Assembly (NCBI GenBank): GCA_902806435.1
Contig: CADCWO010000264.1
Location: 1 to 64,000, forward strand
Origin: an uncultured Synechococcales cyanobacterium
GTDB lineage: Bacteria; Cyanobacteriota; Cyanobacteriia; Thermosynechococcales; Thermosynechococcaceae
Direction: 5' to 3'
Length of the DNA: 64,000 nt
Position 1 is the stretch's first letter. Each line of letters opens with the position of its first letter. Position numbers and translations under genes: made by a program. Under the pieces are notes generated by a model that ran no database searches, was not told where the DNA came from, and was given only the letters and a program-made list of their open reading frames with translations. Of the stretch, positions 38,447 to 52,928 are shown in pieces.

Positions 38447-38746
38447 CGGCTTCTTCCTGAATCAGACCTGGCTTCCTCTGGATGAGAGATAGCGCTTTCG
38501 TTAGTCTATTATCTTTCTTCTGTCACCTTGGCAAAATAAAAGTTGAGCATTGACCTAGTAACAAAATTATTTCTTTGGCACAAATTGGGCTTTACCTTGT
38601 AGCCAGAACCGGAGAAGCGATCCTTAGGCGTGAGTATCATTTTTCGACAATGATAAAAGGAAAGGTACTGTAAAAATTTTCTAAAGTGTCCCAAGCGTCT
38701 TGAGACGCTGTTCTTGCCACTTGTCACTAAAGCTCACGGGATTAAT
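38447..38746. other. leader of proS and trailer of the decayed gene
   Basis: About 300 bp without a supported gene. A hairpin AGCGTC-TTGA-GACGCT lies at 38694-38709, about 40 bases past the stop of the decayed gene; it lacks a clear T-run. A minus-strand 72-codon frame here has no coding features. Confidence 0.45.
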
Positions 38747-40085
38747 TTAAATCTGCTCTAGTTTTGTCTGGGCTGCTTGCATCAGGTTCTGGGCTTCTGA
38801 GTAGGCAGTTGTTCCCGGTTGAATTGTTTGCAGTTGGTTCATGATGCCCTGGAGCTGGCTGATCTTCTGTTTGCTTTCTAGGGATGAACTATTAGCAACT
38901 AACGCTTGAACTGAGGTTTGAGCCTGCTTAAGAACCTCTACTGCTTCTTGCTCAGCTTGAAGCTGGGTTTGTGCCGTACCCAAGTTGGTCTGGTACGTCG
39001 CCAAGAGTTTTTGAGCACTAGCATAACCAGGATCTTCTACAGGGATATCTTCCAAGCGCCGAATTGCTTTTTGCCACAAGCTCGTAGTTTAATTCCACTT
39101 CGCATCAGCGTGAGGTGGTTTTTGCTCCATTTGAGTTGCGGCTTGGGCAAACTCCTGGGTGGCCTCAATCAGGGTTCCAGAACGGGCGCTCCCCGCAGCA
39201 AAACTGGTAACCTGTTCATAATCGCGGGTATAAGCAACGAGCTTTGTTTGGGCTATTCGTCCGGCTAAGGTTTTTGGCGGAATTTGCTGCAAAATATCAA
39301 GGGCTGCTTGCCAAGTTGCAACTTCCGCAAAACGACCAGCTACGATTTGAGCTTTTTGATACTGCTGCTTAGAGATCTTCAGCGCCTGTTCAGCTTGTTT
39401 CAAGAGTACCTGAGCCTGCTTTTCTTGGAAGAGGGTCGCTTCCATTCGTCCAACATTGGCTCTAGCGGTTTTGAATTCATCTAAAGTAAACTGTCAACCC
39501 CACCAAAGAGTGTGCTGTGGCCAATACCCTAAAAACCAAACTGGTAGAGCACCTAAGTTCTTTTCTGCCGCCTCTAACTTCTTTTCGCCCAAACTGAGGT
39601 CGGCTGGACTGCTAGGTTGATTAATTAGCTGGTCAGCCTGCTCAACATGAGCGATCGCCTGTCGGTAGTGACGATCCATACTGATATAGCTAGGTAGCAG
39701 TAGAATTGGGGCTATCCTTGCCACCAGCCAACGAATCATTGGATACGGTAAGTTCAATACATATAGCCCTCCCGTTGTCCCGAGCAAGACAACAGCGGCG
39801 AACTTGATTTTGCCTCACGGCCCTGGCGGTTGGTTAGCTTGTGCAGCGGCCTTTAGTACTTTTTGACTGAAGTTGGGGAACATATCTACGATTACACTAT
39901 GCAGCTTGTCTAGGGAAGCAGGGGACCCGGCTGCAACCGCATTTTCTCCAAACGCTTCAACACAATATCCCGCTGTACCTGGCTAGCCAGATCACTACCG
40001 GCACACTTTGAACTTCTGGCCGCAAAAGCCTCAAGGCTTGGTCGCTAAGACGCCGCATAGAACTTACTGAGCTACTGGTCTCCAT
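38747..40085 (-). pseudogene. decayed membrane/coiled-coil protein gene (3 stops, 2 frameshifts)
   Basis: From the ATG at 40085 the frame reads RRLSDQALRLLRPEVQSVP, shifts near 39982 (SQVQRDIVLKRLEKM) and again near 39933 (SPASLDKLHSVIVDMFPN). From there to 38747 one frame continues, broken only by TGA at 39815-39817, TGA at 39494-39496 and TAA at 39089-39091. A hydrophobic part (about KFAAVVLLGTTGGLYVLN) is followed by a long helical, Gln/Ala-rich tail. It matches a conserved cyanobacterial family I recall without a known function. The intact product would be roughly 440 residues. Each stop differs from a likely sense codon by one transition. Confidence 0.78.
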
Positions 40086-40180
40086 GTTCCCCTAAGCAGC
40101 GGTCCAGATCACACTTTCTTAACTCCCTAGCACTTTAGGCAGGGTGCAGCGATCGCACGTAGGGCCAGACAAAGTTAAAG

Positions 40181-40345
40181 TTATAAATAATAAGGTGCAG
40201 TCTGTATCAACCAACCGTTGTAGAACGACAGCAGGATGAGCACTAAAATGCCCATTCCAAGGGCAAAAACTACAAGAGTACCCCAGCTAACAGAATTTGC
40301 CGCTGCCTTCTGTGTAAGATTTTTGAACGGATTGAGGACAGCCAT
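40181..40345 (-). CDS. 54-residue single-pass membrane protein
   Basis: A perfect ribosome binding site (GGAGG, four bases before the ATG) sets this start. An amphipathic N-terminus (AVLNPFKNLTQKAAANSV) precedes one transmembrane helix (GTLVVFALGMGILVLILLSF) and a short tail ending APYYL. The pattern Trp-Gly-Thr before the helix recalls PsbH in a weak way but lacks its N-terminal signature, so no name is given. It lies about 95 bases downstream of the decayed gene's start, on the same strand. A 20-bp motif lies about 50 bases upstream. Confidence 0.72.
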   Translation of the reverse strand: MAVLNPFKNLTQKAAANSVSWGTLVVFALGMGILVLILLSFYNGWLIQTAPYYL

Positions 40346-40395
40346 TTTTACCTCCACCTGCGATCGTCTACCCACTTCAAAGCTAGGTAAAAAAC

Positions 40396-40415
40396 TTGAG
40401 GATCTTGTGAGGAAG
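40396..40415. repeat. 20-bp motif, copy 1
   Basis: TTGAGGATCTTGTGAGGAAG occurs here and, with one mismatch, at 42324-42343. On the minus strand it contains TCCTCA twice, 11 bases apart, like a direct-repeat operator. It is 51-70 bases upstream of the small membrane protein start. Confidence 0.55.
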
Positions 40416-40698
40416 GAGGGTGGAATGAAGTAAAAGTATTGACTTTGCTCTATGGCTGCTCACCTATTCAGCTCGCTCAGGTACGAAAGACTGGCCAAAT
40501 TTCTACCAACTGTTTTACTTCGGCTCAGGTATTGAGGAATAGCTTTAATCAAAGGGGAATCAGGAAAATAAGGCTACTTTCAGACTCAACATACATGTCA
40601 TCTTGTAGTACATGAATTTTGGGCTTGCAAACGCTACGCTGCCAGAGCTGTGGCACGCCTAACCCTTCATAAATACTTAGTTGTGTTAGCAATTAAGG

Positions 40699-40731
40699 GC
40701 AAAAGGATAGTAATTGTCTCGTCCTTTTTGC
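40699..40731 (-). terminator. probable terminator of the 40.7-41.9 kb minus operon
   Basis: GCAAAAGGA at 40699-40707 pairs with TCCTTTTTGC at 40722-40731 with one bulge. Read on the minus strand the 3' arm is T-rich (CCTTTTGC). It lies 12 bases past the stop at 40744. Confidence 0.45.
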
Positions 40732-40743
40732 TATCGCCTTGCT

Positions 40744-41427
40744 TTATTCATAAACTCTGACTTTATAGGCTAAGTTACAGCAAACACAGTCTTGTCCTTC
40801 ATGCCTACCGTAGGAAAAAATTAGAGAAACTGGCCTAGCTAGAGAAGATTTAGCAGTACGTTCTTGAGTTACTTGATCCATGTATGGTTCATTCTGCTGA
40901 TAATCTACTTCATTGACAATGCGTTGTTTGACTAAACAGCCTAGGCCTAGCTCATAAGCACCGTTAGTTAGAGAATTAACTGTGTTTTTTGCTAAAACTC
41001 CTTTTCTTACACTTTCTTTAAATCCCTCATCTTTAAATTTAAGAACCCTAAAGTAGGTAATCGTTTCTTTTTTGTCAAAAACTAATTCCTCTTTAGTCGT
41101 TAAATACCCACAAACTGCGGTGTCGAACGTATCATCGCCAAAAATGCCGTACTTCGTTGTTTTTCTTAAATTGGTTATTTTGGAAAGATCACATTCTTGG
41201 TTTGAACCTACATTATGAATTTTGTTCTTCGGTTGATTTACTTTCAAGTTGACGCTACTTGCTATTGCTGAGGCACTTTTCCATCCCAATAGTTCTTCAC
41301 AACCTGCCGGTGTAAGTAGGGCAACAACAGCGATCGCATATCCGGCACTTATCCTAGCCTTGCCCCTATTCATAGCAGTAGCCAACCTAATTGGTAAATG
41401 AACTCTTGTGGTAAAAGACATGTTCAT
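40744..41427 (-). CDS. hypothetical secreted or lipoprotein, 227 aa
   Basis: The start is uncertain. The internal ATG giving MNRGKARISAG is followed by a hydrophobic stretch AIAVVALLTPAGC, where PAGC could be a lipobox and the Cys the lipidation site. The rest is soluble with seven further cysteines, including a CVCC pair near the end (QDCVCCNLAY) and one in SNQECDLSK. Conserved-looking motifs are absent from my memory. It lies 17 bases downstream of the small gene to the right, suggesting an operon. Confidence 0.55.
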   Translation of the reverse strand: MNMSFTTRVHLPIRLATAMNRGKARISAGYAIAVVALLTPAGCEELLGWKSASAIASSVNLKVNQPKNKIHNVGSNQECDLSKITNLRKTTKYGIFGDDTFDTAVCGYLTTKEELVFDKKETITYFRVLKFKDEGFKESVRKGVLAKNTVNSLTNGAYELGLGCLVKQRIVNEVDYQQNEPYMDQVTQERTAKSSLARPVSLIFSYGRHEGQDCVCCNLAYKVRVYE

Positions 41428-41444
41428 CAGATCAGCAGCTTCAG

Positions 41445-41663
41445 TTAAGCACGCCTTGTTTTTTTATCAGCAGGCTCCCCTGTAAATGGTTGCAGTCCAG
41501 TTGCAGGATAGTGATCGTCAGTTGGGCTAAAGATCGGGATTACTGCCTCTAAAATGTACTGGGCTGTTTCTTGTATCGCGTTTAAGAGAAAACGAATTGA
41601 CTGTGATATTTTCGTGGCCGACATGACTTTTTCTTCAGAAATAGTACGAATTACGCTATTCAT
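41445..41663 (-). CDS. small conserved-looking protein, 72 aa
   Basis: A helical N-terminal half (SQSIRFLLNAIQETAQYILEAV) is followed by a short Pro/Asp-rich segment IFSPTDDHYPATGLQPFTGEP, a pattern I recognise from short cyanobacterial proteins of unknown function. The start is not certain; ATG codons at 41663 and 41624 and a TTG at 41693 are all in frame. It follows the Trp-rich small gene and precedes the 227-aa gene on the same strand. Confidence 0.55.
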   Translation of the reverse strand: MNSVIRTISEEKVMSATKISQSIRFLLNAIQETAQYILEAVIPIFSPTDDHYPATGLQPFTGEPADKKTRRA

Positions 41664-41693
41664 TGAGTTGCGACTGAGGGTTATAAGTGCCAA

Positions 41694-41936
41694 TTAAAAG
41701 GAGTGTTTCTCCAATGCACAATCTTGGAGCCAGCAACGTTCTAATTGACGAACCGACTCTGGCAGCCAGTCGCGCTCTGGTAGTAGCCAGCAACGCTCTA
41801 AGTGCTCAGTTCTGTAGAAGCGCCAGTACTGGATCGGATTCAAAACGGCTGTCCAGGGGCAGCCACAAAGCAGTTGATTGAGAAATTGCCACACTGGGAA
41901 TTTGACTTTGACTTTGTGGGGCTTTTTGTTTATCAC
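41694..41936 (-). CDS. Trp/Cys-rich 80-aa protein with internal repeat
   Basis: A GTG start preceded by TAGGAGG nine bases upstream shows this is a real gene. The product is basic at the N-terminus (INKKPHKVKVKFPVWQF) and unusually rich in Trp (7) and Cys. A unit LERCWL occurs twice (HLERCWLLPERDWLPES and QLERCWLQDC), which arises from a duplicated 16-base sequence (GCCAGCAACG[T/C]TCTAA on the plus strand). There is no membrane segment. I do not recognise it; Trp and Cys pairing suggests binding or a compact fold. Confidence 0.6.
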   Translation of the reverse strand: MINKKPHKVKVKFPVWQFLNQLLCGCPWTAVLNPIQYWRFYRTEHLERCWLLPERDWLPESVRQLERCWLQDCALEKHSF

Positions 41937-42964
41937 TTGGCGTCCTCCTAAGGTAAAAATGTTCAGCAAACGTCTGTCAGGCTAGGGGTTGTCTCGGCTC
42001 TGAGGAGAGGTTGCCTGAGTTACCTGTTCCAAGGGAATTGATTGCACTACCTGTGAAGCGGGCTTCGCTTGTCCCCACCCATTGGTTCCTCCGCTTATCC
42101 CTAGCAAGAACACAGCATAATTTCTCTGCGATTCGGCACAAGTTGCTGGCTTTCAGGTTGTCGCTCCCCAAAATTTGATTGCTCTTGGACGCAGTTGCGC
42201 CTAAGCAGTCTCAAGCCTGCTGGATAAAGACAGCTGGTTCCTAATCAAGGAGATGAATCAGCAGTTAATTTACCCTGTCCAAATTCACTAAGGCTAACTC
42301 TAATTTGAGGTTAGAAAAACATTTTGAGGAACTTGTGAGGAAGCAAATCTGTTGTTCCAGCCCATTCGTTCTTTAACTTGGGCATGCTCAGGATCAAAAT
42401 GTCACCTCTCATACAGCTTATGGAGATTGACTTGATGCTGGCTGACCTCAATCTCCACCTTGAGATATACTTCATCTCCATCTCAGGTAGAAGACAATCC
42501 CTGGATAATGAAGAACAAATTTGACTATGATAAGGTGTAAATTGTCAATATATATTTACAAAATTTCAATTTTGAGATGCTGTAAGTGTTGCGACAACCA
42601 TCATGTCGGTTTAGAAGGTAAGGAATAGAGACAAACTGCACTCTAGATCAGGTCGATTTCAGTAATCCGCTACCGTTTGGTTAAAGAATGCTGTTCTAGA
42701 CAACTGGCTTCAAAAGGTTCAAAGAGGGCAGCTTCTTAATGGCTCATGCGCTCTAGCTATTTACGCCCTTTTGTTCAAAAGCCTTTGTTCTTGAAGGCAC
42801 TCGTTGGGTTGCTAGTCCTCAGCAGAAAAATCCCCAAGTCAAACCTTACTTCTAGCACATTCACTCTTTGAAAAAGTTCGCATCAGCGAATTCAAATGGT
42901 GACGCTTTCAATTACTTAAACTGCGATGTCCCGCAAAGTTTCTAATACCAAAGGCTGTGAAGTC
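41937..42964. other. intergenic region, about 1 kb
   Basis: The longest gene-poor stretch of the window. It carries the leader of the minus operon (AGGAGG at its edge), the second 20-bp motif at 42324, and AT-rich sequence around 42530-42580. A 64-codon minus frame at 41977-42171 has no ribosome binding site and odd composition, so I leave it out. Confidence 0.45.
42324..42343. repeat. 20-bp motif, copy 2
   Basis: It is TTGAGGAACTTGTGAGGAAG, identical to copy 1 except at one position. It lies about 390 bases upstream of the GTG of the Trp-rich gene. Both copies sit upstream of minus-strand small genes. Confidence 0.5.
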
Positions 42965-43894
42965 ATGAAGAGCACCCAACCCGTTGAACTTCCGATCTCT
43001 TTATCCAAATTTAGAAATAATATTTGGAACTTTGGTATTTTAGCTTGGCTATTTGGAATTGCCGATAGAAGCATTGCTGTAATTGCTGATGGCCGTTTAT
43101 TGGCTGTAGAAATTTCTCAACTTTTGACAGCCTTTTTGTTCTTTTTGTGTTGGCTATATCTAAAGCCAGAACAAAGCTCAAGTAGAGGGAATGTAGATAC
43201 GCTTCAACGTTATCAAGGCGATGCACATTCCCAAGTAGGCACTTATCTATCTACAGCTCAAATCAGAATGCTAGAGCTGCAGGAGCAACATTTAATTAGC
43301 CAAGAATATGTTTTGCCTGTTCCCTATCTCTGCCAGATATATCATCTATTGAATTTAAAACATCTCGAAAAAATTCACGATTTTAGCCTTAATAGTTTAA
43401 AGGTTATTGATGTTAGCTACTTTCAGTCTACGGATAGTGGTGGCATCGTAAAATTTAGAACAGTTCTAGATTCTCCAGTTAATCCTTTGAGAATTTGGAG
43501 GCAACCAGTTGTTGAGGTGGGATTAACATTGCATACCCCCTACACTGTTGAACTTAGCATTCCGGTCTACAACAACAAAAAAATTGTTGTCATATTTAAT
43601 GCTCTTCCTCTAAGCAATTCTGAGCACAAGTTCTTGGTTGATATCTACAGTGATCTAGGGTGGCCCAAAATATTCTTGCAAATCCTCTTGCATGCGGCTG
43701 CTTGTTTAACGCTGTTTGAAGATTTACCCTATTTGAGCAGGCTAGCCGATAGAAACATCTATCGTTTGGTCAACTTGAATAAGGTTTCTGACCATAAAAC
43801 AATGTGGCTTTATCGGAGGTTCGTTGAACTTTATGGTTCGAGTATGGAACTCACCCAATCCAATAGGCCCAGGCTCAGCGAAGCTACCACTTAG
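42965..43894 (+). CDS. hypothetical membrane-associated protein, 309 aa
   Basis: Two hydrophobic helices lie near the N-terminus (NFGILAWLFGIADRSIAV and LLTAFLFFLCWLYL). The rest is a soluble domain with many Leu, His and aromatic residues, a beta-rich middle (VELSIPVYNNKKIVVIFNALP) and a helical end. I do not recognise the family. An upstream in-frame ATG (42926) would add 13 residues. Its codon use is more AT-rich than the neighbours, consistent with recent acquisition, though I have not measured this. Confidence 0.65.
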   Translation: MKSTQPVELPISLSKFRNNIWNFGILAWLFGIADRSIAVIADGRLLAVEISQLLTAFLFFLCWLYLKPEQSSSRGNVDTLQRYQGDAHSQVGTYLSTAQIRMLELQEQHLISQEYVLPVPYLCQIYHLLNLKHLEKIHDFSLNSLKVIDVSYFQSTDSGGIVKFRTVLDSPVNPLRIWRQPVVEVGLTLHTPYTVELSIPVYNNKKIVVIFNALPLSNSEHKFLVDIYSDLGWPKIFLQILLHAAACLTLFEDLPYLSRLADRNIYRLVNLNKVSDHKTMWLYRRFVELYGSSMELTQSNRPRLSEATT

Positions 43895-44076
43895 CTGCAA
43901 GCTGAGACATAGCCACCTACAGGAGATGCGTTAAGTACTGAGTTGGTGCGACGAGGAGAGTTTTTAGGTGCTCAGTTCGAGGCGATTAACCGCCGCTGAA
44001 CACGATCGCTAAAACACCAGGGGAGGCAACCCCTCAGTCATAAAAAAAGGTGTATTAAAATCATGGGCAGATTCCA

Positions 44077-45141
44077 TCAGTGGCTAGCAGTAGGCCTACT
44101 ATCGTCTTCCAGATCAGAAAGCATTTTTAGCCGGATGGTGCGGGAGGCTCCGTTACTAGGGTCACCCAGTTGGACTTCCATCATTTCTCCAGTAAGTCCG
44201 TTTAAGCTGTTCAACAGCGATCGCAGGTGGGGGGTGCTAGACCCACTATCCAGATATAAGCGCTCCGCCAAGCTGTTCAGGCGCTTCCAGGTTGTGTAGA
44301 GTTTGACCATAGTTTGTTCAAGCTGGGCAGCCTGGTTTACCAGATCGGCAGCCGAGTTTAAACAGTCCAGCCGCAAAGCTTCTTCTAGGGCAAGCTCCAG
44401 GTTAATCTGTTCCCGATTCAATGCCTGTACCTGAGCAGCAGCAGTCAGATATTTCGCTAGATAGCGAGCCGATGCAGTTACTTGCTTGAGGGTGTCGGTA
44501 TCGGGGTTTTCCACCATCTCCTGGCTGAGAGAAGTTTGATGGGATTCCGGCAGTTTTTCTAACTCCCGCACCAGCGGTGCTAGATAGCGGGCCGGAATAG
44601 CGTGAGTGGCAGCCTTTGCCTTGACTGGCTCCGGCAGCAAGTCTGAAGTCATTGCCGTCCATTCATCGGCTAGTTGCCGCACTTCGCGGCGGGTGATGCG
44701 ATCGCCGTTGCGAGCGGACTCGGTGATCATCTGTTGCACTTCCGGGGCCGCCTGGGCTGTTTCAATAAACGCGCGCTTACTAAAACGTTCAACCGCAGCT
44801 GGATCTAGGCTTTCATTCTCCAAGAGCGTATCCGCACTGTTCGCAAGTTCAATTAACGAGTAGGCCTGACTTTTGCTAATTTCGCGCTCATTCAACCAGT
44901 GCAAAAATCCACTGCCGCGCCGGTCTCCCCCAGCTTTCTCGCGATCGCGAACAACCCGTAAAATGCGACCGCGCCAGATATCGGTTTGTAGATCAAAGCG
45001 ATCGCAGACTTGCCAAGCGGTTTCAATCTGTTGCTGGAACTCAAACTCCGGGAGTTGCTCATCTTGGGGGTCGGGCAACTGAAAATTTAATTCAATGTCG
45101 TCTCCCAGCGCAGCAATAGGAGGAAGGGGGGTCTGAACCAT
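44077..45141 (-). CDS. conserved-looking helical protein with ParB-like DNA-binding region
   Basis: A 354-aa helical protein. The region DRRGSGFLHWLNEREISKSQAYSLIELAN looks like a helix-turn-helix (REISKSQAYSLI), as in ParB/KorB and DUF3102-type proteins. The second half is long amphipathic helices with heptad character (QINLELALEEALRLDCLN, LEQTMVKLYTTWKRL), possibly for dimerisation. There is no nuclease or ATPase motif and no partner ParA nearby. I treat the DNA-binding role as inference; the family name is unknown to me. Confidence 0.65.
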   Translation of the reverse strand: MVQTPLPPIAALGDDIELNFQLPDPQDEQLPEFEFQQQIETAWQVCDRFDLQTDIWRGRILRVVRDREKAGGDRRGSGFLHWLNEREISKSQAYSLIELANSADTLLENESLDPAAVERFSKRAFIETAQAAPEVQQMITESARNGDRITRREVRQLADEWTAMTSDLLPEPVKAKAATHAIPARYLAPLVRELEKLPESHQTSLSQEMVENPDTDTLKQVTASARYLAKYLTAAAQVQALNREQINLELALEEALRLDCLNSAADLVNQAAQLEQTMVKLYTTWKRLNSLAERLYLDSGSSTPHLRSLLNSLNGLTGEMMEVQLGDPSNGASRTIRLKMLSDLEDDSRPTASH

Positions 45142-51840: not shown

Positions 51841-52928
51841 GTGGATCGAACGCTAACAGAACGTTGTAGTCGCTGTGAAGTGCTACCCCGCTCAGTCATA
51901 AGTGAGGGAAGGCTTTACCTGTGGTTTCCTTTAGGGCATAGCTTAAATAAGGGTTTTCATACTTTGCGCCTGTCAGGCCATGAACCTCAACTTCTGGAAG
52001 ACGGGCAATGTTTGCTGGTAGCACTAGATGAGGCAACAAAGAGAGATTTTGCGATTACCTTAGCAGCAACCTTGACCTCGAAAGAGCTCAAAGAAACACG
52101 AGTTTTGTTGATGGCTGGTGATGCCCCACCCGGATTGAGTGACTTCCGGCGGGTTACCTCCTTACAACAGTTTATGACGCTGAGCCAGTCTGGGTGGCTG
52201 TTGGAAATGATCTCCACCAACCGGATAACCAGTTATTTTCAACCGATTGTTTATGCCCAAGACACCTCCCACATCTTTGCCCAAGAAGCCTTACTGCGTG
52301 GCATTGAGGAAGACGGTAGCCTAGTTTTCCAAACCGAATTTTAGAACTTGCCCGTGATGCAGACGTGCTGTTCCAGCTAGATCTAGCGGCACGTCGTAGT
52401 GCGATTCAGGCAGCTTTCAGACATGGTCTTCAAAACAAACTTTTTATCAACTTTATCCCTACAGCGATCTATGACCCGGCCTTCTGCTTGCGCTCTACGA
52501 TCGCCGCGATCGATGAGGCGGGAATTTCTCACGAGAATGTGGTCTTTGAGGTGGTGGAATCGGACCAGTCTCCGGATATTGTTCACCTGCAAAATATTCT
52601 TAGCTTTTACCGGGACTCTGGCTTTCAAGTTGCTCTAGATGACTTAGGTGCAGGTTACTCTGGCCTCAATTTGATTCACCAGTTACGGCCTGACTTTATC
52701 AAGCTGGACATGGCACTGTCTCGAAATGTCCACCAAGACCCTTACAAAGCCTTGATTGCTGAGAAACTTTTGGAGATTGCTCAACACCTCAATATTCAGA
52801 CGATCGCGGAGGGCATCGAGTCTGAGGAGGAACTGCACTGGGTGCGGGAGCACGGGGCTACCTTTGTCCAAGGCTACCTGATCGGCAAGCCTGCGGCACT
52901 GCCTATGAATACAACTCCCACTTTTTGA
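51841..52928 (+). pseudogene. EAL-domain c-di-GMP phosphodiesterase gene with one frameshift
   Basis: Frame 1 (51841-52344, GTG start) and frame 3 (continuing to 52928) together encode one EAL protein. The break is at the T-run near 52325-52332, where GTTTTCC is best explained by loss of one T before CCAAACCG. The EAL signature is FAQEALLRG. After the shift come FINFIPT, EVVES, ALDDLGAGYSG, IKLDMAL, AEGIESEEE and VQGYLIGKP, so every catalytic and metal residue is present. The N-terminal half has a CSRC pair. This may be a real mutation, an assembly error or a programmed slip. Confidence 0.8.

Follow-up and report, generated by a model that had tools for sequence, protein, structure and literature searches.

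Is a coding region that is broken five times still the record of one gene, and what does its loss say about the lineage that carries it? This question is raised by a locus on the minus strand of the window, by which we mean the whole 64,000-nucleotide stretch of cyanobacterial DNA analyzed here. A sequence-only reading had described the locus as a whole gene caught in decay, and had taken this as a sign that a gene which cyanobacteria otherwise maintain was recently lost and that the lineage has changed. As we discuss below, the decay itself is borne out, while the conclusion on the lineage has to be turned around.

The locus is very probably a pseudogene, derived from a gene for an all-helical, membrane-anchored protein and inactivated not long ago. 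This is ordinary gene decay, and as a lone pseudogene it matters little. It does, however, flag a widespread and apparently unnamed family of cyanobacterial membrane proteins.

One gene in three frames

When the minus strand is translated in three frames from 40085 to 38747, the first frame yields the N-terminus, MRRLSDQALRLLRPEVQ..., the second a short stretch of about 80 bases, KCAGSDLASQVQRDIVLKRLEKMRLQPG, and the third everything after about 39925, with three in-frame stops ahead of the natural one at 38747. The start is either the ATG at 40085 or a position at about 40058, as in the homologues. Together with two frameshifts, each a one-base deficit against the homologous frame at a short homopolymer, this makes five disabling changes, all inside the conserved region (Table 1). 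Their number, and the coordinates of the gene, had been given correctly in the earlier reading. It had also placed the stops one transition away from likely sense codons; the residues seen in the homologues indeed fit single-base steps, but the earlier codon of the first stop is uncertain.

Table 1 Coordinates of the decayed gene and of its disabling changes in the window.
Feature	Position	Strand	Basis
Whole decayed gene	38747..40085	minus	Joined frames; profile match 38750-39934; homologues cover all segments
Frameshift 1: one base missing at an A-run (coding strand)	40007..40010	minus	Frame 1 to frame 0, against homologues
Frameshift 2: one base missing at G/C-runs	39920..39930	minus	Frame 0 to frame 2, against homologues
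Premature stop TGA	39815..39817	minus	Mainly F, L or W in homologues
Premature stop TGA	39494..39496	minus	Column is W in 80/85 homologues
Premature stop TAA	39089..39091	minus	Mainly Q, E or K in homologues
Hydrophobic (membrane) helix remnant and conserved NLPYPMIR...PILLLPSYISMD stretch	39701..39817	minus	Alignment; helix in model of the Argonema homologue

Intact homologues run across the breaks

Homologues with an intact frame, some 450 residues long, can be aligned with every segment at 40–60% identity, the best being that of Argonema antarcticum A004/B2 (L015) with 60%. A profile of the family matches the locus far beyond chance (E = 4.6e-192) and reads straight through two TGA codons and one TAA, so the joined frames do represent one continuous protein, as had been proposed. 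Homology to one intact gene runs across the disabling changes in both the profile match and the alignments.

For a broader view, relatives were scanned with one genome per GTDB species, which gave 201 relatives, and 80 loci were fetched and kept. All 80 have an open frame and nearly all span the segments of the window copy, although one (L021) is cut by a contig end and some are without the N-terminal part. On the side of the homologues, the BLASTX-type check suggested earlier comes out the same way, and because of these continuous loci the pieces are not separate proteins that end at the breaks.

The Argonema gene and about 200 other cyanobacterial loci are alignable with the window copy over its whole length and have the same membrane helix and the same C-terminal end; the conserved NLPYPMIR/LLLPSY and ALPVWFLGY stretches are common to the window and Argonema copies. 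What sets the Argonema gene apart is its open frame, where the window copy has three stops and two frameshifts, and neither it nor the other homologous loci share their gene neighbours with the window.

Could the pieces still be made as small proteins, or the stops be read through? Such a reading would draw on the open segments, which measure 97 to 118 codons and are well conserved. Against it, none of the 80 loci is split at the break points, one stop replaces a near-invariant Trp, and a mix of TGA and TAA plus two frameshifts would require several recoding events. We regard such expression as exceedingly improbable and the pseudogene reading as the far better one.

An intact paralogue was considered as well and rejected: in the window's genome (4.79 Mb in 278 contigs, rated 99.98% complete) the family profile finds neither an intact nor a second full copy, and blastn finds no plasmid copies of the gene. 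Elsewhere the gene varies in number and state. Tandem neighbouring copies occur in three loci (L048, L056 and L064), the second copy of L064 being shorter, and partial or stop-bearing copies in G297, G122, G230 (its second copy) and G258 suggest independent losses in other genomes.

Recent decay or sequencing error?

How long ago would the gene have been lost? Near-invariant residues, defined as columns conserved at ≥95% in the homologues and readable in the window copy, are kept in 48 of 49 cases, with the Trp position that the second stop replaces scored as Trp. Neutral simulations started from six intact homologues need a mean of 43–72 substitutions, or roughly 3–5% of sites, to produce three stops; in 13–30% of the runs no more than one conserved residue has changed. 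Three to five changes at conserved sites would be expected and one is observed, which is on the low side and unremarkable. Judging from this simulation, recent neutral decay accounts for the pattern of stops and the little erosion around them, in agreement with the recent date proposed earlier. In such a course of events, selection on the gene would have ceased, and point mutations together with one-base slippage at short homopolymers would then have accumulated neutrally.

The same features invite another explanation, namely an intact gene misread in sequencing or misassembled. Some of the breaks could be of this kind because both frameshifts sit at short homopolymers, where the one-base deficit of an EAL-domain gene in the window is found too, and the near-complete retention of invariant residues also speaks for it. 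Three of the breaks, however, are substitutions to stops, five breaks fall within 1.3 kb compared with one further break noticed in about 50 kb of coding sequence in the window, and the completeness and contig number of the genome do not point to a poor assembly. Errors throughout would thus be a very unlikely account, and genuine inactivation is preferred.

Bacterial pseudogenes with stops and frameshifts in conserved sequence have been surveyed, for example in PMC6211624. The window copy resembles such ordinary pseudogenes in that several disabling changes interrupt a sequence whose homology continues to either side of them, and differs from them in nothing of kind; here a single gene is concerned, in a genome apparently of free-living size.

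A gene common in the class, missing from close kin

Is the gene otherwise maintained? Among 290 genomes of the class, drawn evenly, a match is found in 131 at E ≤ 1e-20 and in 119 at E ≤ 1e-80, counting the window genome. The gene is common and not universal, with about four in ten sampled genomes of the class carrying it. Within the window's family, which comprises all sampled genomes of its order, 29 genomes were searched and no recognisable copy was found in the 28 others. Nineteen of these reach 90% completeness with no more than 5% contamination and nine do not; the 19 agree on the absence. Five other family genomes give weak matches, none above 32 bits, where other proteins carry repeats like the tail.

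Because all 28 of these relatives are without a recognisable copy, this is not a gene kept by close kin. The earlier conclusion, in which a maintained gene was lost through a change in this lineage, is therefore reversed: the kin are without the gene, and the window genome is the one still showing a remnant. Absence from close relatives, a mark of horizontally acquired genes, holds here (0 of 28).

What we may be looking at is a recent loss event, at roughly 3–5% neutral divergence in the simulation, in a family otherwise without the gene, and this may help to find the role of the protein. A bolder reading is that for the family as a whole this widespread membrane protein is impossible or unnecessary to keep, and that a copy arriving from another order would decay as well. 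This is unlikely; if true, the gene would point to a shift in the cell envelope, or in the partners of the protein, across the entire lineage.

Retained from an ancestor or acquired?

The remnant was either retained from an ancestor or acquired later, and the data hint, with a slight preference, at transfer before decay. This question refines the pseudogene explanation and concerns its origin only. In the gene tree, the window copy shares a clade (support 98/94) with the copies of Argonema, Microseira, Phormidium LEGE 05292 and one genome of the Chroococcidiopsidaceae. The adjoining proS instead joins that of a genome of the same family, G003 (100/100), and lies outside a clade that holds the genomes of the Argonema set with other Oscillatoriales and Nostocales (98/97).

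Such a discrepancy would be expected from a failed acquisition, in which the gene came by horizontal transfer from a cyanobacterium like Argonema, Microseira or the Chroococcidiopsidales and then decayed, with no ancestral loss involved. The 28 relatives without the gene fit this as well, as does the site of the copy, which is rearranged and lies in a stretch poor in genes and low in GC. AU tests, however, reject neither a window copy outside the Argonema clade nor one outside the crown group (p values of 0.068 and 0.096). A separate pair of trees, built from 29 genomes, resolves too little to settle the gene's origin, and the proS tree fails to recover the family as one clade, a placement of the window genome (G000) with the Argonema set not being rejected either (p = 0.14). 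Shared neighbours were not found, and no mobile-element genes were noticed in passing. We give transfer about an even chance.

The alternative is vertical inheritance: an ancestor of the family had the gene, most members deleted it, and the window genome is the last to lose it. The spread of the gene over many orders is what an old gene would show, the AU tests allow the outside position, and broken or partial copies are seen elsewhere too, for example in G297, G122 and the second copy of G230. It requires loss without trace in each of the 28 other genomes of the family, however, and the best tree puts the window copy elsewhere. Its chance falls somewhat short of even.

Genomic surroundings

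Between proS and a gene at 44077-45141, the interval 38460-43900 is poor in long frames and has a G+C content of 0.38-0.49, compared with about 0.51. In the sister genome G003 the flanks are found on separate contigs: proS adjoins rnhA there and the other flank continues to ruvB, both names being assigned from a reading of the translations. The family profile finds no copy of the gene at either flanking site in G003; a weak tblastn match (E = 0.32) beside a syntenic gene was considered as a remnant and dismissed as chance. The only rnhA match in the window genome is on a different contig, at 49% identity. When the window is compared with the homologous loci, no adjacent neighbours are held in common. 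These surroundings are consistent with a labile site.

Elsewhere in the window, on the plus strand, a one-base frameshift at a T-run (near 52336-52345) divides an EAL-domain gene (51841-52928), with the Pfam EAL domain matching both halves. Either the window holds another broken gene here or the sequence was misread.

The intact protein and its helical tail

What would the intact gene have encoded? Pfam and NCBIfam give nothing above their curated cut-offs for the protein family. An AlphaFold model of the Argonema homologue is all-helical (pLDDT 83.6, pTM 0.47), with a helical N-terminal part, a hydrophobic helix at residues 84–104 and long helices after it. A Foldseek search of this model against the PDB returns nothing significant (best E = 0.14), and a sequence search of the PDB yields only weak matches, to designed helical proteins.

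Our guess, made because of the predicted model and the reuse of a repeat in the tail, is that in the intact protein a single membrane helix probably separates an N-terminal part in the cytoplasm from a long run of helices outside it. The helical tail may be a scaffold or binding module, and the protein as a whole scaffold or sensor-like in the envelope.

The repeat in question, W..AI..L..IP....Y..A...L..Y, is found again in the C-terminal regions of other cyanobacterial membrane proteins, among them kinase-like and deacetylase-like ones. In seven loci (L097, L099, L100, L098 and L011-L013) the C-terminal helical parts carry a W..AI..L..IP....Y..A...L..Y..NL repeat that resembles the tail, whereas the N-terminal domains are others and the similarity is weak and local, at 19–32 bits.
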